A stretch of 47,323 nt of DNA, taken from the NCBI GenBank assembly GCA_903851655.1, contig CAINOV010000045.1:1-47323 (forward strand), read 5' to 3'. The stretch is from an uncultured Caulobacterales bacterium. Its GTDB lineage: Bacteria; Pseudomonadota; Alphaproteobacteria; Caulobacterales; Caulobacteraceae. The notes under the pieces were generated by a model. The model saw only the letters and a program-made list of their open reading frames with translations. It was not told the origin of the DNA and did not search any database. Made by a program: the position numbers and the translations under genes. Positions 31,763 to 47,284 of this stretch are shown piece after piece. Position 1 is the first letter of the stretch, and the number at the start of each line of letters is the position of its first letter.

Positions 31763-31801
31763 GTGTTTTCCGCCGCTGGCCGCGGTCGGACCGGGGACTA
31801 G
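31763..31801 (+). promoter_or_regulatory. Bipartite stress element, copy G (36-base spacing)
   Basis: GTGTTTTCCG (31763-31772) with CTAG centred 36 bases on (TAG at 31799-31801), 74 bases before the ATG of the RcnB-like gene. It is a weaker match to the GTAG-n-TTCCG half but keeps the CCGCTGG block and the TAG half. Confidence 0.45.
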
Positions 31802-31874
31802 GCTGACCGCTTTCGCGTGCGGGCCCTGCGAAGGGCGCCGGGACGCGACCGCAGTTCCAAGTCCCGGAGTCTCC

Positions 31875-32648
31875 ATGACGCGCATGAGCCTGATGTTGTC
31901 CGCCGCAGCGGTCCTTGTCGCCCTCTCGGCCGCGCCAACGATCGCCGCGGCGTGGCAGGAGCAGCGTCCGGAACATCCCGGAGGCGGCGGCGGACGCCCG
32001 TCCGAGCCGCGGGCGCAGCCTCAGTCCCGGCCGCAGCCTCAGGCTCAGCCCCGCGCGGCGCCGCAGGCCCGGCCCCAGCGCCAGGGTCCGCCTCAGCGCC
32101 AGGGTCCGCCTCAGCGCGAGGGCGGTGATCCGTCCCGGACCCCGCCGGCGCCCGGTGCGACGAGGCGGGACAATGCTCCCGCGGCCCAGATGCACGCCGG
32201 TCGGGATCGCCCCGCGCCCTCTGGCCCCCAGCGTGCGCCGCCGCGGCCCATGCCCGGCTGGACCCATGGGGCGTCGCCGGCGGAGCGTGACACGGCCGGC
32301 CGCGACTGGCGCGCGTCCCAGGCGGGATGGGATCGCCAGACGGTCTGGGGACGCAATCCCAACTGGTGGCGGACCGATCGCGGGTTTCGAGGCTATTCCG
32401 GCGCGCGGGCGGGGTTCTTCTTCATTCCCGAGCGGGGCTATGTGGCCGCGCCCCCCGCCTATGAGCGCCATTACTGGCCGCCGGGCGACATCCTGCCCAG
32501 CTGGTACTGGGACTATGGGATCGAGGACTATCAGCGCTATGACCTGCCGACGCCGCCGGACGGCTGCCGCTGGGTCTGGGTCGATGACGACGTCGCCCTG
32601 ATCGACGGGGACGGCTACATCCTGGATGTGGTGCGCAACGTCTGGTGA
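31875..32648 (+). CDS. RcnB-family periplasmic protein with Pro/Gln/Arg-rich linker
   Basis: 257 residues from the ATG at 31875. A signal peptide (about 1-26, ending IAAA) is followed by about 105 low-complexity residues rich in Pro, Gln and Arg, including a tandem QRQGPP repeat, and then a C-terminal RcnB domain: LPSWYWDYGIEDYQRYDLPTPP, CRWVWVDDDVALID and GYILDVV (about 205-255). RcnB proteins are periplasmic and in E. coli affect nickel/cobalt homeostasis; alphaproteobacterial paralogues are numerous and mostly unstudied. It is convergent with a second RcnB-like gene. Confidence 0.85.
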   Translation: MTRMSLMLSAAAVLVALSAAPTIAAAWQEQRPEHPGGGGGRPSEPRAQPQSRPQPQAQPRAAPQARPQRQGPPQRQGPPQREGGDPSRTPPAPGATRRDNAPAAQMHAGRDRPAPSGPQRAPPRPMPGWTHGASPAERDTAGRDWRASQAGWDRQTVWGRNPNWWRTDRGFRGYSGARAGFFFIPERGYVAAPPAYERHYWPPGDILPSWYWDYGIEDYQRYDLPTPPDGCRWVWVDDDVALIDGDGYILDVVRNVW

Positions 32649-32651
32649 GGA

Positions 32652-32691
32652 CGACCAACGCCCCCCGCGCCACCGGGCGGGGGGGTGGTCG
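32652..32691. terminator. Hairpin between convergent RcnB-like genes
   Basis: CGACCA plus a C-run pairs with a G-run plus TGGTCG across a short loop, giving a long GC-rich stem with one bulge. It lies in the 51-base gap between two convergent genes and could terminate both. There is no T-tract on either side, so intrinsic activity is uncertain. Confidence 0.5.
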
Positions 32692-32699
32692 CGCGGGGA

Positions 32700-33068
32700 T
32701 CAGCGCTGGTTCAGCAGCACCGAGGCGATCAGGCCGGTGGCCACGGCGACCATCACATAGTTGCCGTTGTGCTCGCGCCACTCATAGCCGGCCCGCGGGC
32801 GGCGCAGATGGTGCTGGCGGTAGTCCACCACCGGGGCGTTGGAATAGTCGTTGTAGCCCATGCGCTCGCCGCGCCGGTATCGGTAGCCGCCGCCCCGGTC
32901 GGCGCCCCAGCCGGCGTGCTGGCCATTGTCATGTCCGCCGTCGTGATTGCCGCCCCGGTCGGGCTGGGCGAAGGCCGCGCCGGTGAGGGCGCCGGCCAGC
33001 GCCGTCGCCGTCAGCGCGCAGAGCATCACCCGGCGCAGGCCGGTGACGCGGGGAGTGTGCGGAATCAT
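32700..33068 (-). CDS. Small RcnB-family protein
   Basis: 122 residues from the ATG at 33068. The signal peptide spans about 1-34 (ending GAAFA), a short His/Gly/Asp-rich linker follows (NHDGGHDNGQHAGW, possibly metal-binding), and then the RcnB core: GERMGYNDYSNAPVVDY, HHLRRPRAGYEWREHNGNYVMVAVATGLIASVLL. A textbook minimal RcnB protein of periplasmic location. It is divergent from the DUF4398 gene at 33300, and both have a copy of the stress element in the shared 231-bp gap. Confidence 0.87.
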   Translation of the reverse strand: MIPHTPRVTGLRRVMLCALTATALAGALTGAAFAQPDRGGNHDGGHDNGQHAGWGADRGGGYRYRRGERMGYNDYSNAPVVDYRQHHLRRPRAGYEWREHNGNYVMVAVATGLIASVLLNQR

Positions 33069-33107
33069 GGGGAGTCCTTTCGAGGATATCGGTTGAGGGC
33101 CGCAAGC

Positions 33108-33147
33108 CTAGGTCTGCGGTCGATCCCGTCCGATCCCCGGAATGTAC
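33108..33147 (-). promoter_or_regulatory. Bipartite stress element, copy B (exact spacing)
   Basis: On the minus strand GGGTACATTCCG (core 33147-33138) is followed 27 bases later by CCTAG (TAG at 33110-33108), 39 bases before the ATG of the small RcnB-like gene. It sits back to back with copy A for the divergent gene. Confidence 0.6.
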
Positions 33148-33192
33148 CCATCCGCGATCCCGCGCACGGACACGGCCCGCCGTCCGCCTGGA

Positions 33193-33232
33193 GTAGATTC
33201 CGAGGCCTGTGCAGGACGGCCGTCGCGCCTAG
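33193..33232 (+). promoter_or_regulatory. Bipartite stress element, copy A (exact spacing)
   Basis: GAGTAGATTCCG (core 33193-33202), then 27 bases, then CCTAGACA (TAG at 33230-33232), 67 bases before the ATG of the DUF4398 gene. One of the best matches. Confidence 0.65.
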
Positions 33233-33299
33233 ACATCCGGTCCGGGGTCGTCCGTCGTTCGCAGAGACCCCGCCATTCACAGAAACAAGGGAATTTGCC

Positions 33300-33713
33300 A
33301 TGAGCGGGTCCGCTCCAGCGTGCTTTGACTTCATCCGGGGACGCGCCCTGGCCCTGGCCGGCGCGGCCGTGCTGATGATGACGCCGGTGATCCTGACGCC
33401 CGGTCTGGCCGCCGCCAGCCAGCCGGCGGCGGAAGCCGCCATCAGCCGCGCCGGCGCCCGGATCGAGATGGCCGCCCGCCAGTCCGGCGTCGCCGGCAAT
33501 GACGGCGACCAGAGCTACAACATGGCCCGCAGCCGACTGGACGCCGCCCGCGCCGCCCTCAAGGCCGGGCATGACGACGAGGCCCAGTCGCTGGCGGACG
33601 AGGCCTCGCTGCTGGCCGAACTGACCACCGAAAAGGCCAAGCTGGCCGCGCTGCAGACCAGCCGCGACCAGGTCGCGGCGTCCGTCGCCGCCTCCACAAC
33701 CGTTCAGCCATAG
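33300..33713 (+). CDS. DUF4398 domain envelope protein
   Basis: 137 residues from the ATG at 33300, preceded by AAGGGA. A signal sequence (about 14-41, ending LAAA) is followed by a helical repeat region SRAGARIEMAARQSG, YNMARSRLDAARAALKAGHDDEAQSLADEAS, quoted in parts, which is the DUF4398 core. It ends 10 bases before the OmpA-type lipoprotein, whose own N-terminal region has the same kind of helices, so the two are co-transcribed and probably act together at the cell envelope. Confidence 0.82.
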   Translation: MSGSAPACFDFIRGRALALAGAAVLMMTPVILTPGLAAASQPAAEAAISRAGARIEMAARQSGVAGNDGDQSYNMARSRLDAARAALKAGHDDEAQSLADEASLLAELTTEKAKLAALQTSRDQVAASVAASTTVQP

Positions 33714-33723
33714 GCGACCCCAC

Positions 33724-34605
33724 ATGTTCGATCTTCGTCACCCCCGCATCCTGACCCGCGTCCTGCTGGTCGGCGCCGCTGCGGCCGCCCTGTCGGCCTG
33801 CGCCTCCATTCCGCCGAACCAGGGCATCATCGACGCCCAGACCCGGCTCGCCGCAGCCTCCAATGACAAGCTGACGGCCGAACGCGGTCAGGGTGATCTG
33901 GCCAACGCCCGCACCGCGCTCGGGTCCGCCGAGACCGACTGGAGCCATGGGGAGCGGGCGCGCTCGGACCACCAGCTGACCATGGCCGTCACCTATCTGG
34001 ACCTCGCCGAGACCCGCGGCCGCCAGGCCGGGGTGGAGCAGGAAACCGCCCGGCTGTCCACCGACGCGCAGATGGCCGCCAAGAACCGGACCATTGCCGT
34101 CAAGGACCGGCAGATCGCCAATCGCGACGATCTGGTGGCGGCGCAGAACCACGAGATCGCCAACCAGAGCCAGACCCTGGCGTCCCGCGACGCGGACCTG
34201 GCGGCGGCCCGGGCGCAGCTGCGGGACTCCGACATGAAGGTCAGCGACCTGGGCTCGACCATGGTGCTGCAGGACGTCAGCTTCGAGACCGGCAAGTCGG
34301 TGCTGCTGGCCGGGGGAGTGAACCGGCTGCAGTCGCTGATCAACTACCTGCGGCTCAGCCCCAACTCCCGGGTTCGCATCGAAGGCTTCACCGACAGCGT
34401 CGGCGGCGCGGCCTTCAACCAGCAACTGTCCCTCGACCGGGCCAATTCCGTGCGCGCCAGCCTGACCGGCGCCGGCATCGACGGCGCCCGGATCGAGACG
34501 GTGGGCTCGGGAGAGACCAAGCCGGTCGCCTCCAACGCCACCGTGTCCGGGCGACAGTCCAACCGGCGTGTGGAAATCACCCTGCTGAAGGAGGCCGGGC
34601 TCTAG
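33724..34605 (+). CDS. OmpA-family lipoprotein with DUF4398-like helical region
   Basis: 293 residues from the ATG at 33724. The lipobox LSAC places the acylated Cys at residue 26. Residues about 35-165 are alanine-rich coiled-coil or helical hairpin (AKNRTIAVKDRQIANRDDL and similar heptads). The C-terminal OmpA-like domain (about 175-290) has FETGKSVLLAGGVNRLQSL, RVRIEGFTDSVG and LSLDRANSVRASL, with the Asp and Arg that bind the diaminopimelate of peptidoglycan (FTD and NRRVEI). It tethers the outer membrane to peptidoglycan. Its TAG overlaps the convergent stop of the flavin oxidoreductase gene. Confidence 0.9.
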   Translation: MFDLRHPRILTRVLLVGAAAAALSACASIPPNQGIIDAQTRLAAASNDKLTAERGQGDLANARTALGSAETDWSHGERARSDHQLTMAVTYLDLAETRGRQAGVEQETARLSTDAQMAAKNRTIAVKDRQIANRDDLVAAQNHEIANQSQTLASRDADLAAARAQLRDSDMKVSDLGSTMVLQDVSFETGKSVLLAGGVNRLQSLINYLRLSPNSRVRIEGFTDSVGGAAFNQQLSLDRANSVRASLTGAGIDGARIETVGSGETKPVASNATVSGRQSNRRVEITLLKEAGL

Positions 34606-35891
34606 CCGGCTCGGCGCGCCTTCAGCCAGGCGGCGCCCGTGCGCTGGACCTGCTGCAGGGCGGCGAACGGTGAGATCCCCGTGTCCGGTCGGCCGGACCG
34701 CGCCAGGGCGTCGATCTGGGCGTAGTACCAGTAGCTGACGGCGAACCCCTCCAGGGTCTGGACCAGCTTCAGCCGGTTCAGGACCCGGAGCGCTGGCGGC
34801 AGCAGGCGTAGCCGTGTCTCCCACCGCTCCAGGCTCTCCGCCCCGGCCAGCAGCCGGGCCGGCCCGCCGGGGTCGGCGCACAGGGGGCGGCCCAGGCCGA
34901 TCATGTCGGCGGCGCCGCTGTCCAGCGCTGCGGTCATGGCCGCCCGGGTGCGGAAGCCCCCGGTGACCATCAGCGGCAGGGTCAGGGACTGGCGCATGGC
35001 CCGGGCGAAATCGACGAAATAGGCCTCCCGCGCAGCGGTGGAGGCCTTCACCACGGGCATGTCCCGGGGCTCGATCCCCTCCAGGTCCATCATCGCCGGC
35101 TGTTCATAGGAGCCGCCGGAGATTTCCAGCAGATCGACGCCGGCGTCCTGCAGCTGGCGGGCCACGACCAGACTGTCCTCGAAGTTGAAGCCGCCCTTCT
35201 GGAAGTCCGCCGAGTTCAGCTTCACGCTCACCGGGAAGCCCGCGCCGACCCCGCGGCGGACCCGGTCCACCACCCGCATCAGCATGCGGGACCGGTTCTC
35301 CAGCGATCCGCCCCAGGCGTCGGTCCGCCGGTTCGACCGGGGGCTCAGGAACTGCGACAGCAGATAGCCGTGGGCGGCGTGGATCTGCACGCCGGTGAAG
35401 CCGGTCTCCCGCGCCACCTCGGCTGCGGCGCCGAAGCGCTCGATCAGGTCAAGGATCTCCGGCTCGGTGAGGGCCACGGGGGCGCCGAACTGGTTGCCGG
35501 GCAGGTTCACGGCGACGGCGGACGGCGCCTTGGGGTGGGGATTGACCGTCGCCTGGGTCTGGCGGCCCGCATGGCTGATCTGCATCCACACATGGCCGCC
35601 CCGGCGCGTTGCCGCCGCCGCCATGGACGACAGCCCGGCGAGCGCCGCCGCATCCGGCCGGCCGCTCAGGATCACATTGCCGGGCCGCTCCAGATGGTCG
35701 CCGTCGATCTGGACATTGCCGGTAATCAGCAGACCGGCGCCACCGTCGGCCCACAGGCCGTAGAGCCGCTCCAGCTCCGGCGTCGCCCGGCCCTGCGGGT
35801 CGGCCAGCCCCTCGGTCATCGCCCCCTTGGCGAGGCGATTGGGCAGGACCGCCCCACAGGGGAGGGTCAAGGCGTCGGCGATGGCCGGCAT
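34602..35891 (-). CDS. Old Yellow Enzyme-family NADH:flavin oxidoreductase
   Basis: 429 residues from the ATG at 35891, nine bases after GAGGAG. FMN TIM barrel: LPNRLAKGAMTEGLAD near the start, MQISHAGRQT, the HAAHGYLLSQFLSP active-site block with the OYE His pair, and NRRTDAWGGSLENRSR. The C-terminal part (DMIGLGRPLCADP) binds the FMN phosphate. There is no iron-sulfur or second flavin domain, so it is a short ene-reductase-like member rather than 2,4-dienoyl-CoA reductase. Single gene; its upstream region has an AT-rich inverted repeat. Confidence 0.9.
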   Translation of the reverse strand: MPAIADALTLPCGAVLPNRLAKGAMTEGLADPQGRATPELERLYGLWADGGAGLLITGNVQIDGDHLERPGNVILSGRPDAAALAGLSSMAAAATRRGGHVWMQISHAGRQTQATVNPHPKAPSAVAVNLPGNQFGAPVALTEPEILDLIERFGAAAEVARETGFTGVQIHAAHGYLLSQFLSPRSNRRTDAWGGSLENRSRMLMRVVDRVRRGVGAGFPVSVKLNSADFQKGGFNFEDSLVVARQLQDAGVDLLEISGGSYEQPAMMDLEGIEPRDMPVVKASTAAREAYFVDFARAMRQSLTLPLMVTGGFRTRAAMTAALDSGAADMIGLGRPLCADPGGPARLLAGAESLERWETRLRLLPPALRVLNRLKLVQTLEGFAVSYWYYAQIDALARSGRPDTGISPFAALQQVQRTGAAWLKARRAG

Positions 35892-35909
35892 GGAATGGGC
35901 TCCTCAATC

Positions 35910-35947
35910 TTTACATTGATTGGATCCCATTGCCGCCGGCTTGTAAA
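35910..35947. promoter_or_regulatory. AT-rich inverted repeat upstream of the flavin oxidoreductase
   Basis: TTTACA (35910-35915) and TGTAAA (35942-35947) form inverted half-sites about 32 bases apart in the otherwise GC-rich gap between the oxidoreductase start and the SOD end. OYE genes are often controlled by redox- or electrophile-sensing repressors, so this may be an operator. No regulator gene is adjacent. Confidence 0.3.
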
Positions 35948-35959
35948 TCGCTCCCGGCG

Positions 35960-36607
35960 TCAGGCCGCGACGACGGACGGAAGGGGGTGACGCCAGGGCG
36001 ACCCACCGCTGACCGCCGCCTGGAACTGCGCGCCGGCGAAGGTCCAGTCGATCAGGCCGTCGAACCACGCGGCCAGGAAACCGGCCCGGTCGTTCTGGTG
36101 GTCGAGATAATAGGCGTGCTCCCACAGGTCGCAGACGATCAGCGGCGTGCGCCCGGCGTCGGCCAGGGCGTTGTGGGCGTCATGGGTCGACGAGACAGCC
36201 AGCGCGCCATTGGCGTCGGCAGTGAGCCAGACCCAGCCCGAGCCGAAGTGCCCGACGCCCTCGGCGATGAAGGCGGCCCGAAGGCCGGCCAGGTCGCCGA
36301 ACGACCGCGCGATCTGCGCCGAGAGGGCGGCGTCGGGGGCGGTGCGGCGCTCGCTCATGCTCAGCCAGAAGAAGCTGTGGTTCCAGCACTGGGCGGCGTT
36401 GTTGAACAGCTTGGCCTCATGGGCGGCCGCGGCGGCGGCGATCACCTCCTCGAGGGAGTGGGCCGGGCCGGGCTTCGCCTCCAGCAGGGTATTCAGGGTG
36501 CGCACATAGCCAGCATGGTGCTTGCCATGGTGAAATTTCAGGGTTTCCGCCGAGATCACCGGGGCGAGGGCGGTATCCGGGTACGGCAGGGACGGCAGTG
36601 CGAACAT
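35960..36607 (-). CDS. sodB: Iron superoxide dismutase
   Basis: 215 residues from the ATG at 36607, with GGAG seven bases upstream; the longer frame to 36628 adds an unneeded leader. All four metal ligands are present: His26 (KFHHGKHH), His77 (QCWNH), Asp160 and His164 (CDLWEHAY). The gateway residues His30, Tyr34 and Tyr167 are intact, and Gln73 in AAQCWNH is the position typical of iron enzymes. No signal peptide: cytoplasmic. It aligns without gaps with the paralogue at 37763. Confidence 0.93.
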   Translation of the reverse strand: MFALPSLPYPDTALAPVISAETLKFHHGKHHAGYVRTLNTLLEAKPGPAHSLEEVIAAAAAAHEAKLFNNAAQCWNHSFFWLSMSERRTAPDAALSAQIARSFGDLAGLRAAFIAEGVGHFGSGWVWLTADANGALAVSSTHDAHNALADAGRTPLIVCDLWEHAYYLDHQNDRAGFLAAWFDGLIDWTFAGAQFQAAVSGGSPWRHPLPSVVAA

Positions 36608-36830
36608 GGGGAGGTCTCCGAGTGACAAGTGAACAGTGATCCGAATACAGCCGACGACTTTGGCGGAACGCCGAATGGACTTTCGTCATATCAAAAACAG
36701 GACGCACCGGAGGGTCAGGCCCGGACGGACGGTGTGTCGTCGGACGCCACCACGCCGATGCGTGCCACGCCGGAGATGCGTATGGCGGCTGGGGAATACA
36801 ATATAAACACAGCGAAAATCGCCCGACTGC

Positions 36831-36840
36831 GTAGTTTCCG
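36831..36840 (+). promoter_or_regulatory. Stress element half-site, copy J (exact 10-mer, no TAG half)
   Basis: GTAGTTTCCG, identical to copies C and E, in the gap between sodB and the small minus-strand gene at 36904. No TAG at the expected distance and no plus-strand gene downstream. The 296 bases from 36608 to 36903 contain no other feature I can support. The stretch at 36793-36815 is AT-rich (aatacaatataaacac) and could be a minus-strand promoter toward sodB. Confidence 0.4.
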
Positions 36841-36903
36841 ATGGCGTGGACCCCTGTCGGATCTGCCCACGACGTCCGGTCCGCGGCGGCTCCGGCCCTC
36901 CCG

Positions 36904-37164
36904 TCAGCCGACCATCATGTCGATGGCCAGCAGCAGCATTTCGAGGGCGCCCAGCTCCCGCTCCAGCAGGGCGACCAACAGAACGCCGGACCGATGCGCG
37001 CGCCCCCGGGCCCCGGGCGGCGGATCACCGAACACGTCCACATTGTCGATCAGATAGGCGACGGCGCGCAGTTCCTGCACGGTGGCGATGGCGTCATTGA
37101 CGGTTTTCCGCAGGGTCCCGTCCGCCCCGTGGTCATCGAGGGTCGGCGAACCGGGCCCGGTCAT
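36904..37164 (-). CDS. Hypothetical 86-residue protein
   Basis: ATG at 37164, 36 bases downstream of the XRE regulator's stop on the same strand. Sequence: a short flexible start, then helices LRKTVNDAIATVQELRAVAYLI and LLVALLERELGALEMLLLAIDMM around a Pro/Gly/Arg loop. Balanced composition suggests a real protein rather than an antisense shadow. I do not recognise a family. Probably co-transcribed with the regulator. Confidence 0.5.
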   Translation of the reverse strand: MTGPGSPTLDDHGADGTLRKTVNDAIATVQELRAVAYLIDNVDVFGDPPPGARGRAHRSGVLLVALLERELGALEMLLLAIDMMVG

Positions 37165-37200
37165 GACCGGGGTCGCCGCGCACGGACGCGCGTCGACGTC

Positions 37201-37620
37201 TCAGACCACTGTCTCATTCTCTTCCATTTCGTCGATTTTCGCCAGGGCCTGCACGAAGGTCAGGGCCGTTCGTCGAAGCAGGCGCTTGCGGATACTGGCA
37301 TAGGCGCTGAGAAGAGACTCCGCATCCTCGGCCGGGGCGCCGGGCCGACCCCGGTCGCGATCCGCCGCCGGGACCGGCGTCGCCGCGCCGGCGTCGAGCC
37401 CGGCGATCATCTGCTCCACCGGCAGGGCCAGGGTGCGGCACAGGGCGGTCAGGGTGGAGAAGCTGACGCGATTGACGCCCCGCTCATACTTCTGGATCTG
37501 CTGGAAGGTCAGGCCGACGGAGCGCCCGAGCGCCGCCTGGCTAAGGCCCAGCGCCCGGCGACGCCGCCGAATGCGGTCCCCGAGGGCCGAGTCGAGAGTG
37601 CAAGCGAGATCTTCATCCAT
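37201..37620 (-). CDS. XRE-family (Cro/CI) transcriptional regulator
   Basis: 139 residues from the ATG at 37620; the frame continues upstream to 37764 but the AT-rich promoter-like bases at 37621-37670 argue for this start. The helix-turn-helix is clear: [44 protein letters not shown]. This SinR/HipB-like type is common in Caulobacterales. The C-terminal half is helical ([19 protein letters not shown]) and ends in acidic EMEENETVV. It lies back to back with the SOD-like gene at 37763 and may regulate it. Confidence 0.88.
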
Positions 37621-37629
37621 ACCCGAAAC

Positions 37630-37656: not shown

Positions 37657-37686
37657 GACGTCAAAAGCGCACAATACGTGCGCCGC

Positions 37687-37726
37687 GTAGTTTCCGATCC
37701 TGCCGGGGCGGGGCCGGTCGCGATAG
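37687..37726 (+). promoter_or_regulatory. Bipartite stress element, copy C (exact spacing)
   Basis: GCGTAGTTTCCG (core 37687-37696), ATCCTGCC, then TAGGGT with TAG at 37724-37726, 36 bases before the ATG of the SOD-like gene. Confidence 0.65.
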
Positions 37727-37762
37727 GGTCCCGATTGTCCGAACCCCTGTTGGAGGGCGCTC

Positions 37763-38410
37763 ATGTTTCTGTTGCCGGACCTGCCCTATGCGGCCGACGC
37801 CCTCGCGCCGGTCGTTTCAGCGGACGCCCTGCGGCTCCATCACAGCCGGCTCCACAGGGGCTATGTGACCCAGCTCAACACCCTGCTGGCGGAGCTGCCT
37901 GGGGTCTGCGGCCCGCTGGAGTCCGTGATCGACGCCGCTAGCGCGCTGGCGGACCCGGCCCTCGGGCGAAGCGCGGGCCAATGCTGGATCCACAGCCTGT
38001 CGTGGGAGTGCATGAGCCCTGTCCCCACCACGCCCGCCGCGCCGCTCTCCGCCGAGATATCCGCGCAGTTCGGCGGCCTTCCGGGCCTGCGGTCCGCCTT
38101 TGTCGCCGCCGGCGTGGCGCAGTTCGGGTCGGGCTGGGCCTGGCTGGTGTCCGACGGCCAGGGCGGGCTGAAGGTGGCGACCACGGCGGACGCCCGACCG
38201 GTTCTGGTCGCGGCAGGGCAGGTGGCCCTGCTGGTCTGCGACCTGTGGGAGCACGCCTATGATCTCGACCACCACGATGACCGCGCCGCCTATCTCGGCG
38301 GCTGGTTCGACCAGCTGGCCAACTGGACCTTCGCCGGTCGCCAGCACGCGGCCGCGATCCGCGGCCAAGGCGCCTGGCGCCATCCGCCGCCGGTCCGGCT
38401 GGCGGCCTGA
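37763..38410 (+). CDS. Divergent Fe/Mn superoxide dismutase paralogue
   Basis: 215 residues, the same length as SodB and alignable without gaps. Metal ligands His26, His77, Asp160 and His164 are kept, as are Tyr34 and the GSGWAWL tryptophans. However, His30 is Leu, Asn76 is Ile and Tyr167 (E. coli FeSOD Tyr163) is Asp. His30 and Tyr163 are the hydrogen-bonded pair that bridges the dimer and gates the active site, so both partners are lost together. The protein probably still binds metal but may have low SOD activity or another role. A stress element lies just upstream, and the small gene at 38447 follows. Confidence 0.87.
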
Positions 38411-38446
38411 ACCCGTGGCGCACCCCCGCTCCTCGCGAGACCTCAC

Positions 38447-38648: not shown

Positions 38649-39353
38649 TCAGACGACGGTCCCGAACAGGGCGCCGACGCCCGATGTCACCCCCATGGCC
38701 GCCGCGCCCCATAATGCGGTCCTGAGGCCGCCGGTCACCATCCGCGCGCCCCCGGCCCAGGCCGCCAGGGCGCCCAGGGTGGCGAGGCAGGCCAGGGAAG
38801 CGACGGTCAGCGCCACGGGGATGGACGGGGCCGGCGCCGCCGCTGCGACGATCACGGGCACCAGGGCCCCGGCGGCGAAGCTGGCCCCCGACGCCATGGC
38901 CGCCTGCACCGGGCGGGCGCGGGCGGTCTCGGTGATGCCGAGCTCGTCCCGGGCGTGGGCGTCCAGGGCGTCGTGCGCCATCAACTGCTGCGCCACCTGC
39001 CGGGCAAGCTCCGGGTCCAGGCCGCGGCCCACATAGATCGCCGCCAGCTCCCGGTGTTCGCCGTCCGCATCGGTGCGGAGCTCCTCCCGCTCAAGGGCGA
39101 GGTCCGCGGCCTCGCCGTCGGCCTGGGAGTGGACCGAGACATACTCCCCTGCAGCCATCGACATGGCGCCGGCGACCAGGCCCGCAACACCGGAGATCAT
39201 CAGGCTGTTGCGGTCGCCATGGGCGGCGGCCACCCCCAGCAGCAGGCTGGCGGTGGACAGGATGCCGTCGTCCGCGCCGAGCACCGCCGCCCGCAGCCAG
39301 CCGGTCTTGGCGATCCTGTGACGCTCCATGGCGGGGGGCCGGGTCCGGCTCAT
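38649..39353 (-). CDS. VIT1/CCC1-family membrane protein
   Basis: 234 residues from the ATG at 39353, six bases after GGAG. The VIT signature is plain: LRAAVLGADDGILSTASLLLGV, then MSMAAGEYVSVHSQAD, with the acidic loop (ALEREELRTDADGEHRE) that binds metal in these vacuolar iron transporter relatives. The C-terminal three helices complete the five-helix fold. Predicted iron/manganese transporter that moves metal out of the cytoplasm, consistent with the SODs nearby. It ends four bases from the small gene at 38447. Confidence 0.9.
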   Translation of the reverse strand: MSRTRPPAMERHRIAKTGWLRAAVLGADDGILSTASLLLGVAAAHGDRNSLMISGVAGLVAGAMSMAAGEYVSVHSQADGEAADLALEREELRTDADGEHRELAAIYVGRGLDPELARQVAQQLMAHDALDAHARDELGITETARARPVQAAMASGASFAAGALVPVIVAAAAPAPSIPVALTVASLACLATLGALAAWAGGARMVTGGLRTALWGAAAMGVTSGVGALFGTVV

Positions 39354-39376
39354 CTGGGTCTCCGTGGCTGACGCGC

Positions 39377-39407
39377 GACCTAGCCCTCCTGGGCGTTTCG
39401 CCGTCAA
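39377..39407 (-). promoter_or_regulatory. Candidate housekeeping promoter of the VIT gene
   Basis: Minus strand TTGACGG (39407-39401), 16 bases, then GCTAGGTC (39384-39377). This fits the published Caulobacter housekeeping consensus (TTGaCgS and GCtANAWC). The start would lie about 20 bases upstream of the ATG. Confidence 0.45.
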
Positions 39408-39437
39408 GGCCGGATCGGCCCGCCGGACGGTCCCTGG

Positions 39438-39447
39438 GTAGAAGCCG
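39438..39447 (+). promoter_or_regulatory. Stress element half-site, copy H
   Basis: GGGTAGAAGCCG with the AACCTGCCGG continuation seen in copies C and D, 96 bases before the DUF3775 gene; no TAG at 37 bases (ATGATCC there). Confidence 0.35.
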
Positions 39448-39543
39448 AACCTGCCGGCGCTCGCCGCCGGATGATCCAACGGCGAGCGTCCTCGATCGGC
39501 GCCGATCCGGCGGCGGTCGTCCGCGCTGCGCAGGAGCCTGCCG

Positions 39544-39936
39544 ATGCCGTCGCTGACCCTTTCCCCTGACACTGCCTTCGCCATTGTGCAGAAGGCGCGA
39601 CAGTTCGACGTCAAGGTCGACCAGACCGATCCGGACAGCGGCTCCAATCCCACCGACGACACCAGTGTGGACGCGCTGGAGTTCGGCGCCGCGGATGACA
39701 CGCTGCACGAGTTGACCACGGTGATCCGTGACCTGAACGACGACGAGCAGCGGGATCTCATCGCGCTGATCTGGGTGGGCCGGGGCGACTTCACCCTCGA
39801 CGAGTGGGCCGAGGCGCGCACCGCCGCCATGGACGTCAGCCGCGCGCGGGTCCCGCGGTACGTGACCGGCATTCCCCTGGTCAGCGATTACCTCGAAGAG
39901 GCTCTCTCCCAGTTCAACCTCAGCGCCGACGCCTGA
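39544..39936 (+). CDS. DUF3775 family protein
   Basis: 130 residues from the ATG at 39544. Matches the DUF3775 pattern: AFAIVQKARQFDVKVD, then DSGSNPTDD, the core LNDDEQRDLIALIWVGRGDF and the C-terminal YVTGIPLVSDYLEEALSQF. Small acidic soluble protein, common in Alphaproteobacteria, of unknown role; frequently seen near stress genes, as here. Confidence 0.85.
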   Translation: MPSLTLSPDTAFAIVQKARQFDVKVDQTDPDSGSNPTDDTSVDALEFGAADDTLHELTTVIRDLNDDEQRDLIALIWVGRGDFTLDEWAEARTAAMDVSRARVPRYVTGIPLVSDYLEEALSQFNLSADA

Positions 39937-39952
39937 GCGGGCGGCGATTTGA

Positions 39953-39992
39953 GTAAAGTCCGATCCTGCCCCCGGCGCGCGCCGGTGGGTAG
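39953..39992 (+). promoter_or_regulatory. Bipartite stress element, copy D (exact spacing)
   Basis: GAGTAAAGTCCG (core 39953-39962), ATCCTGCC, then GGTAGCGT with TAG at 39990-39992, 100 bases before the BON protein's ATG. The 5' half is imperfect but the spacing and ATCCTGCC block match copy C. Confidence 0.55.
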
Positions 39993-42436: not shown

Positions 42437-42471
42437 ATCCCGCGCCTCCCATACCCCAGAGGACAACCGAC

Positions 42472-43236
42472 ATGACCGCGCCCCGGACCGACGACACGCT
42501 CGACGCCCCCACCCTCGACACCCGCAATCGCCATGCGCAGAGCACCGGGGCGGAGCAGCGCACCCTGGCCGCGATCTTCCGCCACCCCCTGGCGCACAAC
42601 CTGGCCTGGCGGGAGGTCGCCAGCCTCTTCGCCGCCATCGGCAGCATCGACGAGCGCCACAGCGGGGAGTTCCTGCTGACCGCCGGGGACCAGACCCATG
42701 TGATGAAGAAGCCGCATCACAAGGACCTGACCGGCGACGACGTGATGGAGCTGCGACACTTCCTCGCCCGCGCCGGCTGGTCGCCCGAGGCGAAGCCGTC
42801 CCTCGACGCCGACGCCACCGCGCCGGACCCTGCTTTCGTCGTGGTCATCGACCATGCGGGCGCCCGGATATACGCCCTGGACCGGTCCATCGACGCCGTC
42901 CAGGGCGCGCCGCCGCCGGAGCCGAAGCACGTGACCCACCATGTGGAGGCCAAGCACCAGGACGCCGATCGCGACGAGACCTATCCCGAGGACACCCATT
43001 TCTTCGACGCCGTCGCCGAGGCCGTGAAGGGCGACGGAGAGATCGTGGTCATCGGTCACGGCGCCGGCCAGAGCAACGAGGCCGACCACCTCACCGCCTA
43101 TCTCGACCGGCATCACAAGCCGGTGGCGGCGCGGATCGCCCGCCAGCTTACCGCCGATCTGCCCCGCCTGTCGCCGGCGGAGCTGGTCGATCTGGGCCGA
43201 CGGGCCATCGGCTCGGCGCACGACCGGGCCGAATAG
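42472..43236 (+). CDS. Two-part protein: HicA-like fold plus eRF1-related C-terminal domain
   Basis: 254 residues from the ATG at 42472, with GAGG upstream. Residues about 35-105 (FRHPLAHNLAWREVASLFAAIG, HVMKKPHHKDLTGDDVMELRHFL in parts) resemble a HicA-type double-stranded RNA-binding fold. Residues about 120-250 (FVVVIDHAGARIYALD, DTHFFDAVAEAVKGDGEIVVIGHG, SNEADHLTAYLDRHH, ARIARQLTADLPRLS, in parts) resemble the last domain of eRF1/Pelota-like bacterial proteins (baeRF class). This pairing would suit an RNA or ribosome-linked stress factor, but both assignments are by pattern only. It follows oleate hydratase by 35 bases and is likely co-transcribed. Confidence 0.75.
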   Translation: MTAPRTDDTLDAPTLDTRNRHAQSTGAEQRTLAAIFRHPLAHNLAWREVASLFAAIGSIDERHSGEFLLTAGDQTHVMKKPHHKDLTGDDVMELRHFLARAGWSPEAKPSLDADATAPDPAFVVVIDHAGARIYALDRSIDAVQGAPPPEPKHVTHHVEAKHQDADRDETYPEDTHFFDAVAEAVKGDGEIVVIGHGAGQSNEADHLTAYLDRHHKPVAARIARQLTADLPRLSPAELVDLGRRAIGSAHDRAE

Positions 43237-43268
43237 GCGGCCAGGGTCCGCAGCATTCCGCCGTCTGA

Positions 43269-43308
43269 GTAGTTTCCGCCGGTGGTCCCCCGTCTGTCCG
43301 AGGCCTAG
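43269..43308 (+). promoter_or_regulatory. Bipartite stress element, copy E (exact spacing)
   Basis: GAGTAGTTTCCG (core 43269-43278), then CCTAGCGG with TAG at 43306-43308, 67 bases before the receiver gene's ATG. Confidence 0.65.
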
Positions 43309-43375
43309 CGGAGGGGGTTGCGGTCTCGCGTCCGGCGGGCCCCCACGACGTCTATGCAGAATGAGGATACGGGCC

Positions 43376-43828
43376 ATGGCGCCGAGTCTGAAGGTCATGA
43401 TCGTCGAGGACAATCTCATGCTCGCCGATCTGCTCGAGGAGATCCTCGTCACACAGGGTCACACGGTCTGCGGCATCGCCCGCACGGCGGAGGAGGGCGT
43501 CGCCCTCGGCCGGCAGGCCTGTCCCGACCTCGCCATCATCGACGTGCGCCTGGCCGACGGCGGCTTCGGACCCGAGGTCGCCGAGGCGCTGGCCGACCTG
43601 ACGGACATGGGCGTCCTCTACGCCACCGGCAACCTCGACATGGCCGTCGTCCTCGACGCCCGCGGGCAGGGATGTCTGGTCAAGCCGTACCGGATCGAGG
43701 ATCTGGTCCGGAGCATCGAGATCGTCGAGGAGCTCAGGCGCTTCGGCCGGACGACGGGACCCACTCCGCGCGGCTTCCACGCCCTGCGCAGCCGCCCGTC
43801 GGCCCGCGGGGACGCGGCCAATGGATGA
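43376..43828 (+). CDS. Single-domain response regulator
   Basis: 150 residues from the ATG at 43376, nine bases after GAGG; an in-frame ATG at 43361 is upstream. Receiver domain only: acidic pair Glu11-Asp12 (MIVEDN), phosphoacceptor Asp56 (AIIDVRLADGG), Thr in YATGN, Lys in CLVKPY. No output domain. The stop overlaps the start of the histidine kinase gene, so they are a pair. Single-domain receivers of this kind next to HisKA_2/HWE kinases act in the alphaproteobacterial general stress response phosphorelay. Confidence 0.9.
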   Translation: MAPSLKVMIVEDNLMLADLLEEILVTQGHTVCGIARTAEEGVALGRQACPDLAIIDVRLADGGFGPEVAEALADLTDMGVLYATGNLDMAVVLDARGQGCLVKPYRIEDLVRSIEIVEELRRFGRTTGPTPRGFHALRSRPSARGDAANG

Positions 43829-45002
43829 CCGCGAGCGGGTGCTCAAGCTGCTCCGGCAGCAATCCGCCATCGCCGGCTTCGGCAGCTTCGCCCTGCGCCA
43901 GACCGACCTGCAGGCGGTGCTGGACGAGGCCGCCCGGGCCTGCGCCAAGGGGCTGGACGTCACCTTCTGCAAGATCTGCCGGTTCCAGCCGGAGAGCGAT
44001 GACCTGCTGGTGGTCGCGGGCGTGGGCTGGCGGGAGGGCGTTATCGGCCACGCCGTCTCGAAGGCGGACGCCACCACGCCCCAGGGGCGCGCCTTCACCA
44101 GCGGAGATCCGGCCATCGCCCGGGACCTGCGGATCGCCACCGGCTATGTCCTGCCGGCCTTCTATGCCGCGCACGGCATCATCTCCACGGTGGATGTGGT
44201 GATCAAGGGCGCCGCGCGGCCGTATGGCGTGCTGGAGGTGGACAGCGACGTCCAGCTCGATTTCGACCCCCACGACATCGACTTCCTCACCGGCTTCGCC
44301 AATGTGCTGGCCGAGGCGGTCTCCACCTCGGAGCGGACGGCGGTGCTGCAGTCGGCGCTGGCCGCCATGCGCGCCCTGGTGACTGACAAGGACCTGCTGC
44401 TGGAGAAGACCCGCGTCCTGGCGCAGGAACTGCAGCACCGGGTCCGGAACAATCTGCAGCTGATCTACGGCATGCTCACCAACCAGATGGTCGGCCTGAA
44501 TTCGGAGGTGGCGGAACGGGGGCTCAGCGCCATCGCCCGTCGGGTGTCCACCCTGGCGCAGGTCTATGACCATCTGATCGGAGCCGACATGGCGGAGACG
44601 GTGGAGGCGGGGGCGTTCCTGCGCTCGCTGTGCGTCGCCATCGCGACGGTTCAGGCGCAGGACCGGATCCGGCTCGACTGCGTCACGGCGCCGGTGTTTC
44701 TCGATCTCGACACGGTGACGGCGCTGGGCATCATCACCACGGAGATCGTCACCAACTGCTACGAGCACGCCTTTCCCGAGCATGTGGGCGAAATCCGAGT
44801 GGACCTGCGCCGCGTCGCGGACCACCCGGATCTCTGCCAGCTGACCCTCAGCGACACCGGCCCCGGCTTTGTCGCGGCGCCCCTGTCGAAGCGGCACGGG
44901 ATCGGTCTTGTCCGTCGGCTGGCCGAACAGATCGGCGGAACCGCGACGCTCTCGGGGCCGCCGGGGGCCGTCTGGACCATCGTCTTTCCTGCCGCACCCT
45001 AG
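43821..45002 (+). CDS. GAF-domain HisKA_2 histidine kinase
   Basis: 393 residues from the ATG at 43821, overlapping the receiver gene by eight bases. A GAF domain (about 25-170: FCKICRFQPESDDLLVVAGVGW, GYVLPAFYAAHGIIST, YGVLEVDSD, in parts) is followed by the HisKA_2 dimerisation domain with His206 in QELQHRVRNNLQLIYGML. The HATPase (about 300-390) has ITTEIVTNCYEHAF as N box, LSDTGPGF and HGIGLVRRLAEQIGG. No membrane segments. HisKA_2/HWE kinases feed PhyR-type stress regulators in this class of bacteria. It probably phosphorylates the receiver encoded just before it. Confidence 0.92.
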   Translation: MDDRERVLKLLRQQSAIAGFGSFALRQTDLQAVLDEAARACAKGLDVTFCKICRFQPESDDLLVVAGVGWREGVIGHAVSKADATTPQGRAFTSGDPAIARDLRIATGYVLPAFYAAHGIISTVDVVIKGAARPYGVLEVDSDVQLDFDPHDIDFLTGFANVLAEAVSTSERTAVLQSALAAMRALVTDKDLLLEKTRVLAQELQHRVRNNLQLIYGMLTNQMVGLNSEVAERGLSAIARRVSTLAQVYDHLIGADMAETVEAGAFLRSLCVAIATVQAQDRIRLDCVTAPVFLDLDTVTALGIITTEIVTNCYEHAFPEHVGEIRVDLRRVADHPDLCQLTLSDTGPGFVAAPLSKRHGIGLVRRLAEQIGGTATLSGPPGAVWTIVFPAAP

Positions 45003-45009
45003 ACGCAAG

Positions 45010-45039
45010 GACCCCGCCGTGGAGGTCAGCGGCGGGGTC
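45010..45039 (+). terminator. Perfect 10-bp hairpin after the kinase gene
   Basis: GACCCCGCCG (45010-45019) pairs exactly with CGGCGGGGTC (45030-45039) around a 10-base loop, starting eight bases after the kinase stop. No T-run follows, so it is a terminator-like or mRNA-stabilising hairpin. Confidence 0.5.
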
Positions 45040-45108
45040 GAAGCGGCAGGGAGCTGGTCGGTTCCGGCCGAGGGCCCGGACTGGGACTGGGGCCCGGACT
45101 CGGACTAG
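45019..45108 (+). CDS. Possible 29-residue acidic micro-ORF
   Basis: GTG at 45019 with AAGGA seven bases upstream (45007-45011), stop at 45106-45108. The product has no basic residues and ends GPDWDWGPDSD. It overlaps the hairpin and, by four bases, the convergent gene at 45105. It may be chance in a GC-rich region; listed because the ribosome binding site is good and nothing else explains the segment. Confidence 0.25.
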   Translation: MEVSGGVEAAGSWSVPAEGPDWDWGPDSD

Positions 45109-45356
45109 GGCATGTCCATCAAGGGCGTGGCGTCGGCCGAAATCCAGTGGGCGGTGATGGTGGCGTCGAAGGCTTCATTGCACTTGGTATGGGCCCGGGA
45201 GACCTGGGTCAGCGCCTTGCTGTTGTTCAGCCGGCGATGAAGCTCCGCGGCTTCGCGATGACAGCGCGCGACTTCTTCGTGAAGGTCTGCCGCGATCAGA
45301 TTACAAGAGATCGCGTTCGAAATGTCGTCTTCGTTGGTATCGAGCTGGCGCCGCAT
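45105..45356 (-). CDS. Hypothetical 83-residue helical protein
   Basis: ATG at 45356, eight bases after GGAAGGGA. Helical and hydrophilic (SCNLIAADLHEEVARCHREAAELHRRL, KALTQVSRAHTKCNEAFDATITAHW, in parts), with three cysteines and several His, so metal binding or redox sensitivity is conceivable. No family recognised. A stress element half-site lies 93 bases upstream on the same strand. Confidence 0.65.
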   Translation of the reverse strand: MRRQLDTNEDDISNAISCNLIAADLHEEVARCHREAAELHRRLNNSKALTQVSRAHTKCNEAFDATITAHWISADATPLMDMP

Positions 45357-45449
45357 CGTCTGGATCCCTTCCTTGCTGATCGGACCGGAGGGCTCATCGG
45401 TCTCCGGACGGCGACCATGACCTCATGATTACCCTCGGCGGAGCAGCGC

Positions 45450-45459
45450 CGGAATCTAC
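45450..45459 (-). promoter_or_regulatory. Stress element half-site, copy I
   Basis: GAGTAGATTCCGGCGCTG on the minus strand (core identical to copy A), 93 bases before the ATG at 45356; no TAG at 37 bases. Confidence 0.45.
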
Positions 45460-45541
45460 TCAGTAACCATGACCCGTTCGACTGATACCCCTGCAGCCGA
45501 CGCGCTCTGTCCGGCGTCCCGCACCCCAGTCAAGCCGGTGG

Positions 45542-45580
45542 GTACTTCCCGACGCTGGTTCCGGGCGGGGATTCTTCTAG
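45542..45580 (+). promoter_or_regulatory. Bipartite stress element, copy F (36-base spacing)
   Basis: GGGTACTTCCCG (core 45542-45551), ACGCTGG, then TCTAGCGT with TAG at 45578-45580, 161 bases before the ATG at 45742. Confidence 0.45.
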
Positions 45581-45741
45581 CGTCCGCGCGTCGCAATGAC
45601 TTCAGGTTTTCCGTTGAAAACAACAGCTTTGCGGCAAACGACCCGTCACGGAAATGCGGGTTGAAGTGTCAGTCACGGGCGACCTCCCCCTCCGCACGGG
45701 CGCCCCGGAGATTCCTGCGGAGGCGCATGTCAGGACATCCC

Positions 45742-46338
45742 ATGAGAGCCGAACGGGAGCTTCAGTTTGTCGGTCCCCAGCACGCGAACGGCGCCGTGAT
45801 CGTCACTGTCTCGTTCGAGACCGGCGACCGCGCCGGGGCGGACGGTGGCGAGCGCGCCCCGACGGCGCGACGGGGCGGCGGTCTCGCCGGCCTCGCCGTG
45901 GTCGCCCTGGCGGTTATCGGTTTCGCCGGCTGGACCGCCCTGACGGCGCGGCAGGACGCCGAGGCGGCGCACGCAGCGATCGGCGCCCCGCAGGACGTGC
46001 AGACCGTGCGCCGGGCTGGCGCCGCGCAGGACGCGTCCGACATGAAGGTGCTCGACGCCTACCGCCTGTCCGGCGGCGGGGTCGCGGACGTGGAGGGCGA
46101 CATGGCCTGGCTCGCGCAGAACAAGTCGAACCCCGCGGCCGTGACCCGCCTGTCCTGGACCCGCGGGCGGATGGTGGTCGTCGGACCCTATCCGACCTCG
46201 CCCTTCCGCGCCGGCGACCGGCGGATCACCCCGGCGCCCGAGTCGGGGCCCCCGGGCCAGCACGCCTATGTCGTCGCGCCGCGGCCTTCGCCGGCCGCGC
46301 CGACGGGCCCGGCCCTCGCCGGCCGGGAGGGACGCTGA
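45742..46338 (+). CDS. Membrane-anchored protein, PilN/GspL-like topology
   Basis: 198 residues from the ATG at 45742, six bases after AGGA (an in-frame ATG at 45727 has GGAGG too close). About 48 cytoplasmic residues, one transmembrane helix (GLAGLAVVALAVIGFAGWTAL), a helical stretch with QDAEAAHAAI, and a small domain ending TRLSWTRGRMVVVGPY, which is how PilN and GspL periplasmic domains finish (sLsw-xxg-l-l-xG). A Pro/Ala tail follows. It lacks the actin-like cytoplasmic domain of full GspL and the INLLP start of PilN. Assignment is by topology and short pattern only. Confidence 0.6.
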   Translation: MRAERELQFVGPQHANGAVIVTVSFETGDRAGADGGERAPTARRGGGLAGLAVVALAVIGFAGWTALTARQDAEAAHAAIGAPQDVQTVRRAGAAQDASDMKVLDAYRLSGGGVADVEGDMAWLAQNKSNPAAVTRLSWTRGRMVVVGPYPTSPFRAGDRRITPAPESGPPGQHAYVVAPRPSPAAPTGPALAGREGR

Positions 46339-46339
46339 C

Positions 46340-46846
46340 ATGTCGCGGCGCAATCCGGTGCTGACGGCCTCGGTGATCCTGGCGGTCGGGCTGTGCGCCA
46401 TGCTGGCCACGTCCGAGGCGCTGACCCGCCTCGCCGCTCCGCCGACGCCGTCCGACCCTCCGCCCGCCGCCGCGCCGGAGACGTCGGGGGCGTCGCCGCT
46501 GAAGGCGGCGCTCATATCCCCGCAGACCGGACTCGTCTGCCGCAGCCCGCCCGCCGTCGCCGCCAGGGCGCTGAAGCTCAGTCTCGGCGGCCTCCTGGCG
46601 CGAAGCGGCGCGGACCCCCGCGCGTTGGTGGTGGCGCCGGCGCCGGCCAACAGTCGTTACCCCGCCACCGCGCCGATCGGCTTCACCCTCTCGGCCCTGA
46701 TGCGACCCGAGGCCTTCCTGCGTATCCTGGCGCGGATCCGCACCGAGCGGCCGGACATCGTCCTCGAGCATTTGGAGCTCGAATCCCGCGCTGACAATGT
46801 TCGGGTGGATCTGGCCGGGGAGATCGTGTGTTGGGTCGGCGCCTGA
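46340..46846 (+). CDS. Membrane-anchored protein, PilO/GspM-like
   Basis: 168 residues from the ATG at 46340, two bases after the previous stop, with GGGAGG upstream. N-terminal helix (PVLTASVILAVGLCAMLA), a Pro/Ala linker, then an alpha/beta domain with IGFTLSALMRPEAFLRILARI and IVLEHLELESRADNVRVDLAG, in parts. The order strand, helix FLxxLxxxxPxIxLExLxL, strand is the ferredoxin-like fold of GspM and PilO. Likely interacts with its neighbours to form an inner-membrane assembly platform piece. Confidence 0.65.
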   Translation: MSRRNPVLTASVILAVGLCAMLATSEALTRLAAPPTPSDPPPAAAPETSGASPLKAALISPQTGLVCRSPPAVAARALKLSLGGLLARSGADPRALVVAPAPANSRYPATAPIGFTLSALMRPEAFLRILARIRTERPDIVLEHLELESRADNVRVDLAGEIVCWVGA

Positions 46847-47202
46847 GCCTCGCCCTGGCGGCCGTTCCCGTGGGCGGGGCCCTCGGCGCAGCTCTGTGGC
46901 TGGCCGGCGGCGGGGCCAATCCCACCCGGGCGCCGGTCCCGACCGCCCCCGCCGTGGCCGCCGGCTCGCCCCTGTCCGTGGCCGGGCTGTGGGAGCGGGT
47001 CGGCGGACTTGCGCAGCGGGTGGAGACGGTTTTCCGCGCGCCGCCGCCGCCGCCGCCGCCACCGGTCGTCGCGGAGGCGCCGCCGGTCCCGACCCCCGGA
47101 TCGCCGACCACAGCGTCCGCCAGACACAACGGAAGGCCGGACCCGGCCCCGGCCGCCGGTCCCAGCGGCCTGTCCATCCGGCTGGTCCAGAAGACGCCCT
47201 GA
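46828..47202 (+). CDS. Membrane-anchored proline-rich protein, GspC/PilP-like position
   Basis: 124 residues from the GTG at 46828 (or TTG at 46831), overlapping the previous gene by 19 bases. One transmembrane helix near the N-terminus (SLALAAVPVGGALGAALWLAG), a short helix (VAGLWERVGGLAQRVETVF), then an octaproline run and a Pro/Ala-rich tail ending LSIRLVQKTP. In type II secretion and type IV pilus loci, the gene after M/O encodes a TM plus Pro-rich linker protein (GspC or PilP) that reaches the secretin. The folded end domain of those proteins is missing here. Weak assignment. Confidence 0.55.
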   Translation: MLGRRLSLALAAVPVGGALGAALWLAGGGANPTRAPVPTAPAVAAGSPLSVAGLWERVGGLAQRVETVFRAPPPPPPPPVVAEAPPVPTPGSPTTASARHNGRPDPAPAAGPSGLSIRLVQKTP

Positions 47203-47274
47203 CCACCCGGGGACCTTCCGTCTGGCGCATCCGGACCGTCGCACCCCGTGGCGAGTTTCGGCCGGGCCAATCCG

Positions 47275-47284
47275 GGGAAACTAC
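47275..47284 (-). promoter_or_regulatory. Stress element half-site, copy K
   Basis: GGGTAGTTTCCC on the minus strand, 73 bases after the last stop. No TAG half and no minus-strand gene follows within the window; on the plus strand it would precede whatever gene lies beyond 47323. Confidence 0.35.

Follow-up and report, generated by a model that had tools for sequence, protein, structure and literature searches.

A probable FixJ-type operator at stress genes of a Caulobacterales bacterium, with a sister clade of FixJ as its likely reader

The window analyzed in this work, a stretch of 47,323 nucleotides (contig CAINOV010000045.1 of assembly GCA_903851655.1), derives from an uncultured Caulobacterales bacterium and is contig C45 of its draft genome G000 (3.85 Mb, 419 contigs). 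In its part beyond 31 kb a short element, termed the box below, recurs upstream of one gene after another, with the core TRRGTARWTTCCGNNNCT and a TAnnnT about 37 bases further on. Judged from sequence, the box is very probably a FixJ-type operator, TRRGTARWTTCCGRNNCT, combined with a weak sigma70-type promoter, and its most likely binder is a sister clade of FixJ. The comparison sets consisted of 5 other genomes of the same genus (G001-G005), 199 genomes of the family and 385 of the class.

The box and the genes around it

Two models were used for scoring. R1 is a sequence-only box model with 37 training sites, which were drawn from 60 distinct GTAGNTTCCG sites after 11 loci judged coding and 8 judged non-promoter-like had been left out; 41 rows remained after the first pruning, and another 4 were dropped. 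The foreign-site matrix was trained on other genera and comprised 62 sites, each matching GTA[AG][AT]TTCC plus T at position -3 or CT at +13. Genes were called by a crude rule of GC by codon position, and some calls were erroneous. The boxes, with the candidate -10 elements, matrix scores and R1 expectation values (E), and the receiver-kinase pair were located as follows.

31760-31777, plus strand: weaker box GTGTTTTCCG; -10 TAGGCT at 31799; matrix 10.5
33133-33150, minus strand: weaker box GTACATTCCG, 5' of the RcnB-domain gene 32700-33068 (minus); -10 TAGGCT; matrix 7.9
33190-33207, plus strand: box; TAG at 33230; R1 E 9.2e-5; matrix 18.5
36828-36845, plus strand: box between two superoxide dismutase (SOD) genes, without recognizable -10; R1 E 0.09; matrix 20.7
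37684-37701, plus strand: box 5' of the SOD paralogue 37763-38410 (SOD domains); -10 TAGGGT at 37724-37729; R1 E 1.3e-6; matrix 24.6
39435-39452, plus strand: weak box GTAGAAGCCG near the DUF3775 gene 39544-39936, without -10; matrix 14.9
39950-39967, plus strand: box GTAAAGTCCG ahead of the BON and oleate hydratase genes; -10 TAGCGT at 39990; matrix 24.2
43266-43283, plus strand: box 5' of the receiver-kinase operon; TAG at 43306; R1 E 5.5e-4
43361-43828, plus strand: single-domain receiver with weak PhyR-type receiver similarity, below NCBIfam cut-offs
43821-45002, plus strand: GAF-HisKA_2 kinase; top NCBIfam match PhyK, far below cut-off
45445-45462, minus strand: box with the highest matrix score of the window (29.6), without clear -10; R1 E 2.7e-4
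45539-45556, plus strand: weak box GTACTTCCCG; -10 TAGCGT at 45578; matrix 13.2
47270-47287, minus strand: box identical to the FixJ core from systematic evolution of ligands by exponential enrichment (SELEX), GTAGTTTCCC, without CT and -10; matrix 8.5

An initial annotation, made from the window alone, had described the element at 11 positions, all of which were correct, and the sequences that it quoted were all present. Direct inspection of the window located GTAGTTTCCG at 36831, 37687 and 43269, GTAGATTCCG at 33193 and 45459 (minus), and GTACATTCCG at 33147 (minus). The reported spacing of TAG from the first base of the core was likewise accurate, namely 37 bases at 33193, 33147 (minus), 37687, 39953 and 43269, and 36 bases at 31763 and 45542; TAG was absent at a spacing of 34-39 from the boxes at 36831, 39438, 45459 (minus) and 47284 (minus).

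The pattern GTARWTTCCG occurred 5 times in the window, always beyond 33 kb, where 0.06 were expected, and none of 100 shuffles reached 5. With the foreign-site matrix, the 11 positions took ranks 1-11 of the window; 10 sites scored at least 8 against 0.5 expected (60 simulated windows), 6 scored at least 15 against 0.017 expected, and the top site apart from the 11, at 11476 (minus), scored 6.2. The first 31 kb had been described as free of such copies, and R1 gave only one weak match there (7149-7183, minus, E 2.4). Moreover, the aligned sites agreed beyond the searched core, with YTG on the 5' side and CTG on the 3' side. The box was thus strongly supported as a real cis element.

The genome-wide R1 scan, which scored 150 out of 8682 first-look candidates, gave 23 matches at E<=0.1, including 19 training sites; 5 of the 23 were in the window contig, which indicated that the regulon is not limited to the window. 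Genome-wide enrichment over the control depended on the pattern. GTAGTTTCCG, with T as the middle base, was enriched in the own genome (17 versus 2 in the control), and GTAGWTTCCGNNNCTG, the core with the downstream CTG, was found 9 times against 0 (2, 3, 0, 4 and 0 in G001-G005, control 0, 1, 0, 0 and 2), while the core GTAGNTTCCG was not enriched.

Regarding the neighboring genes, the box at 33190-33207 precedes an open reading frame (ORF) at 33300-33713 without family and an OmpA gene at 33724-34605. In the translation used here, the box at 31760-31777 overlaps the start of ORF 31680-32645, whose true start may differ and whose C-terminus is RcnB. The minus-strand box at 45445-45462 sits 5' of a gene for 83 amino acids (45108-45356, minus), and its 52% homologue in G004 was boxed too. 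The two Fe/Mn SOD genes, 35960-36628 (minus) and 37763-38410 (plus), are divergent, and their 1.1-kb gap contains two boxes. Most of the targets named in the initial annotation were recovered, comprising two RcnB domains, SOD, BON-oleate hydratase, the receiver-kinase pair and an OmpA protein whose DUF4398 match was below threshold; the PilNOP-like set was not borne out, as no family was found for 45654-46364 or 46268-46846. Elsewhere in the window, 38649-39872 (minus) encodes a VIT1-family protein whose N-terminal ~190 residues had no Pfam match, and 72-7829 is an open frame of 2,585 amino acids with a sub-threshold RTX calcium-binding repeat match only.

Promoter geometry and likeness to FixJ sites

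The consensus of the element was T-R-R-G-T-A-R-W-T-T-C-C-G-R-N-N-C-T, followed after about 22 bases by TAnnnT. Since the rows left out of R1 had been picked by eye, partly for lack of a -10, the -10 columns of R1 were biased, and the -10 test was therefore run on 33 independent sites of other genera outside R1, although some of these regions had been chosen because R1 had matched there. T at -3 and G or A at -2 were present in 33/33 sites, CT at +13/+14 in 30/33, and a TAnnnT with its first base at +36 to +38 was seen in 16/33, compared with 0-2 in 23 control windows; the strict TAnnnT was satisfied by 5 of the 11 window boxes. The anatomy given earlier was adjusted accordingly. The flank described as GnG is actually T-[GA]-N; of the downstream CTG the CT part was retained, with T at -3 as a further constant; and the spacing of the second half was confirmed, its TAG being the start of TAnnnT. 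The conserved T, CT and TAnnnT supported the proposal that the element is a promoter or an activator site and that its -10, of TA(G) type, stands at a near-fixed spacing.

When TAnnnT is read as a sigma70-type -10, the box is placed at about -52 to -40, abutting the -35. The CT would then coincide with the beginning of a poor -35, and the box would stand where class II activators usually bind. For two targets, the ATG, at +51 and +48 relative to the box, occupies the place where transcription would start, which fits leaderless messages.

Sites of this kind are known from FixLJ of Sinorhizobium. The SELEX consensus motifs of FixJ are reported as GTAGTTTCCC and GTAMGTAG, the fixK site as TAAGTAATTTCCCTTA, and the FixJ footprints on fixK as -69/-44 and -57/-31 (PMC4999443); the fixK site of R. 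palustris was given as GTACGTAG (PMC13327599), and no FixJ motif was found in passages of PMC7078487 and PMC3073932. Compared with the SELEX core GTAGTTTCCC, GTAGTTTCCG copies matched at 9/10 positions, GTAGATTCCG copies at 8/10 and the copy at 47284 at 10/10. The box and the sites GTAGTTTCCC and TAAGTAATTTCCCTTA are alike in the core GTA(G/A)-W-TTCC and in the T three bases 5', and would also be alike in a position at or overlapping the -35; the span predicted for the box from the TAnnnT spacing is -52 to -40, and one FixJ footprint covers -57 to -31. Unlike the SELEX sites, the box ends in CCG, not CCC, with an extra CT at +13. The regulon had been called undescribed in the initial annotation; the box itself belongs to a type already known (9/10, or 10/10 at 47284, to GTAGTTTCCC). 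The match to the FixJ consensus suggested a box of known FixJ type, but extended and far more widely used: it stands at many stress promoters, whereas no FixJ target other than fixK was reported to recur consistently in Caulobacterales (PMC4999443).

An alternative sigma factor of the extracytoplasmic function (ECF) or EcfG type that reads both halves would agree with the targets, which resemble general stress genes and include one boxed ECF sigma gene. However, about 26 bases separate the end of the conserved first half from the TA, more than the -35/-10 pair of an ECF factor allows, e.g., GGAAC-N16-CGTT (PMC7083833), and the EcfG motif was not enriched in the window (10 with at most 1 mismatch versus 7.0 expected); no exact match with N16-18 was obtained. 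This explanation was considered extremely unlikely, and an EcfG promoter, which the initial annotation had also dismissed, was rejected on sequence and spacing. The PhyR-NepR-EcfG system resembles the present one in the types of targets, in the distant PhyK/PhyR matches, below cut-off, of the window kinase and receiver, and in the targeting of an ECF gene with a PhyR_sigma2 match; it differs in that the box promoter has another sequence and a sigma70-like -10.

The UzcR m_5 site of Caulobacter metal stress is alike as an activator site 43 or 53 bases 5' of the start. It was the first candidate to be considered and was rejected: its sequence, CATTAC-N6-TTAA (PMC8963506), differs, and 0 copies were found in the window even at 2 mismatches.

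Targets beyond the window and their conservation

In the own genome, boxed genes encoded an ECF sigma factor, the regulator at C273, a BON protein, an LTXXQ protein, a gluconate-dehydrogenase subunit, a nitroreductase and an RcnB/glycine-zipper protein, and several boxed genes had no family match. The ECF sigma gene at G000:C50 (L196:525-1121, minus) had a PhyR_sigma2 match; its product may be EcfG-like, and no EcfG model matched. Its neighbors on this 4.4-kb contig encode an MFS transporter and, in addition, a type III polyketide synthase, and no phyR or nepR was seen there.

In G017, a genome of another genus, the targets were cytochrome bd, aldehyde and alcohol dehydrogenases, a CHASE3 hybrid kinase, a universal stress protein, a metal ATPase and BON, and a phosphoketolase was encoded in the same island. 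In gene content only, this island resembles the Burkholderia lxa locus and DosR-type dormancy regulons, with universal stress protein, dehydrogenases and cytochrome bd in common; unlike the FixJ-like clade, the lxa regulator is a CRP/FixK-type protein (PMC6127331). The presence of cytochrome bd among the targets would point to low oxygen as the stimulus in some genomes. Taken as a whole, the types of targets supported the stress-type regulon that had been suggested.

The box was kept at orthologous targets of related genomes. G001 and G002 have receiver orthologues (73% and 71% identity) that were boxed as well, and further boxed ortholog pairs were found for the nitroreductase (69%), the LTXXQ protein (61%), a 73-amino-acid protein (73%) and a lipoprotein-like protein (79% and 56%). 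Boxed homologues of the window BON protein were detected at G000:C58 (66%) and in G017 (55%). Other boxed pairs were weak: for one, homology was not convincing (E 0.045), and two oxidoreductases shared just 30%. A search of contigs for the SOD paralogue yielded 80 loci (885 kb) with relatives at 38-51% identity, in which 6 chance-like GTARWTTCCG matches and no clade helix (see below) were found; the nearest named matches, up to 51% identical, came from Caulobacteraceae and other metagenome-assembled genomes, which makes membership of that family most likely for the organism.

A FixJ sister clade as the candidate binder

The REC-GerE gene at C273 carries a box of its own upstream, and its relative in G002 is boxed upstream too. 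The closest solved relative of the C273 protein was FixJ 5xso (E 2.4e-39), whereas its FixJ equivalog score was 175 bits against a cut-off of 255. In a tree of 30 proteins, for which reading frames were ended at the first stop, C273 grouped (0.999) with G002:C71 and G017:C2 as well as with the C-terminal parts of hybrids at G000:C396, G002:C121 and G004:C137. The regulators of this clade are FixJ-like over their full length, with a receiver and a LuxR-type helix-turn-helix (Pfam REC-GerE). The scanned hybrids, C396 and C137, have the order CheB-CheR-PAS-HisKA-HATPase-REC-REC-GerE; both (L194:1389-5792 and L199:6638-10999) are of ~1,460 amino acids. G002:C71 is a REC-GerE-PAS-HisKA_2 protein, a fusion of HWE type. 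The recognition helix, in its longer form SQRTVENHRAxIM, read SQRTVENHR in 33 of the 39 clade members read, and the other 6 differed by one letter; ordinary FixJ-type proteins have SPRTVE[VI][YH]R or similar. The clade profile split by score, with at least 266.9 bits in 18 of the 199 family genomes and 209.1 bits for the next match.

The controlling factor had been left open by the initial annotation, which need no longer be so, because the FixJ-like clade co-occurred and co-localized with the box. In these searches 15 or 7 candidates per genome were scored for proteins and 28 or 14 for boxes; the family and class counts are accordingly lower bounds. In the family, 15 genomes had at least two boxes at E<=0.01, and 28 had any box. 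The clade was present in 12 of these 15 genomes versus 6 of the 184 others (Fisher p 1.3e-12), and in 8/10 versus 6/183 (p 3e-9) without the six genomes from which profile rows or training sites had been taken. Among the genomes of the own genus, G002 and G004 had clade and boxes; G003 and G005 had 0 and 1 box, no clade, and FixJ. In the class, the clade profile (E<=1e-62) was found in 24 genomes, the box (E<=0.01) in 18 and both in 12; with the own genome excluded, 11 of 17 boxed genomes carried the clade versus 12/367 (p 2.4e-11). The five lowest class matches, G590, G380, G428, G399 and G525 (214-224 bits), had the ordinary FixJ-type helix, and without them the counts were 11/17 versus 7/367 (p 6e-13).

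Boxes and regulator were also close to each other. In G017, seven boxes were located in a 20-kb stretch containing the regulator (0.06 expected), and in G068 all five boxes were on the regulator's contig, at most 20 kb away. By hand count with G000 excluded, 18 of 62 boxes in 11 clade genomes were on the same contig within ~30 kb of the clade gene, where about 1 was expected (1.5%, a rough 60 kb in 4 Mb), or 9 of 44 without the training genomes; G086, G087, G099 and G128 had no box on the contig of the clade gene. In the class, a box shared the regulator contig in 8 of 11 genomes (G570, G545, G349, G273, G282, G484, G257 and G559), at distances of 28 bases to ~24 kb, and box and regulator were on different contigs in G466, G491 and G497. 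At L355, L352, L354, L375, L277 and L281 a box stands just past the match of the clade gene, probably in the gap before the next gene.

It was considered unlikely that ordinary FixLJ reads the box, with canonical FixJ as binder and oxygen control through FixL. The SELEX consensus was obtained with FixJ itself (PMC4999443), and G000:C264 encodes a FixL-like kinase (549 bits, cut-off 850) beside a FixJ (266 bits, cut-off 255). Nevertheless, G003, G005 and G026 each encode a FixJ that passes the NCBIfam cut-off and yet have 0, 1 and 0 boxes at E<=0.01; the fixJ stretches (17-19 kb) of G000, G003, G005 and G026 contained no GTARWTTCCG and a single looser GTAR.TTCC, in G005; and a FixJ-type protein (E<=1e-45) was present in 154 of the 199 family genomes, against any box in only 28. 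Canonical FixJ was set aside as the binder because the boxes do not track it. A second possibility, that the box is bound by another transcription factor of the islands, with the FixJ-like gene as a linked passenger, was rated very unlikely: island linkage would yield the same co-occurrence and the clade was not found in every boxed genome, but the box matches the FixJ consensus independently, and the linkage holds in other families at varied regulator-box distances. The receiver at 43361-43828, which had been named as a knock-out candidate, has no DNA-binding domain in Pfam and is therefore unlikely to be the binder; it can act upstream in a relay.

Several observations weigh against the box as a widespread operator or against the FixJ sister clade as its reader. 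A strict TAnnnT in the +36 to +38 range was missing from half of the independent sites. The core GTAGNTTCCG with any middle base was not enriched genome-wide (28 versus 32 in the reversed control), and GTAGTTTCCG was not clearly enriched in G001-G005 (9/11, 6/4, 4/4, 5/20 and 2/34 versus control). Five clade proteins scored 163-209 bits, under the NCBIfam cut-off of 255 for the FixJ equivalog, and the true FixJ of G000 (266) is encoded elsewhere. The clade was undetected in the boxed family genomes G001, G138 and G143 (fragmented, 83-90% complete) and in 6/17 boxed class genomes, although the ~4 chance box matches expected in 385 genomes at E 0.01 may explain much of these six. Conversely, 6 of the 18 family genomes with the clade (G160, G127, G085, G172, G108 and G072) had fewer than two boxes, and 12 of the 23 profile-bearing class genomes had no box at E 0.01. 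The co-occurrence p-values ignore kinship, and related genomes are not independent. The islands could also encode another DNA-binding protein.

With the FixJ sister clade as binder, we infer binding, activation and signal as follows. A PAS, GAF or HWE-type kinase module would sense stress or low oxygen and phosphorylate the FixJ-like receiver, directly or via a single-domain receiver. The window kinase (43821) and receiver (43361) were 57% and 47% identical to a pair beside a FixJ-like regulator in G078, which, together with the HWE-type fusion in G002, suggested that such kinases drive the regulator. The regulator, encoded at G000:C273, where it is itself boxed, and in the C-terminal part of the hybrid G000:C396, would then bind the box and recruit sigma70 polymerase. 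The putative regulon would comprise envelope, oxidative-stress, metal and, in G017, micro-oxic genes, plus a possibly EcfG-like ECF sigma factor. The boxed receiver-kinase operon would constitute a positive loop.

Such a regulon was not described among the open-access papers listed by the searches, which is weak evidence of absence, as subscription journals and preprints were largely outside the search. Whether many alphaproteobacterial families share an undescribed global stress regulon of this kind was judged to be an evenly balanced question. It would be read by a FixJ sister clade wired to CheB-CheR/HWE-type kinases and not to the haem sensor FixL, often located in stress islands with its targets, autoregulating, and feeding the general stress response via an EcfG-like sigma factor. 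An anonymous motif becomes a candidate regulator-operator pair, and the 18-base search pattern predicts a regulon across genomes of several alphaproteobacterial families. These results suggested that FixJ-type operators, known from fixK and nifA, may have been reused for a broad stress programme linked to HWE-type kinases and an ECF sigma factor.

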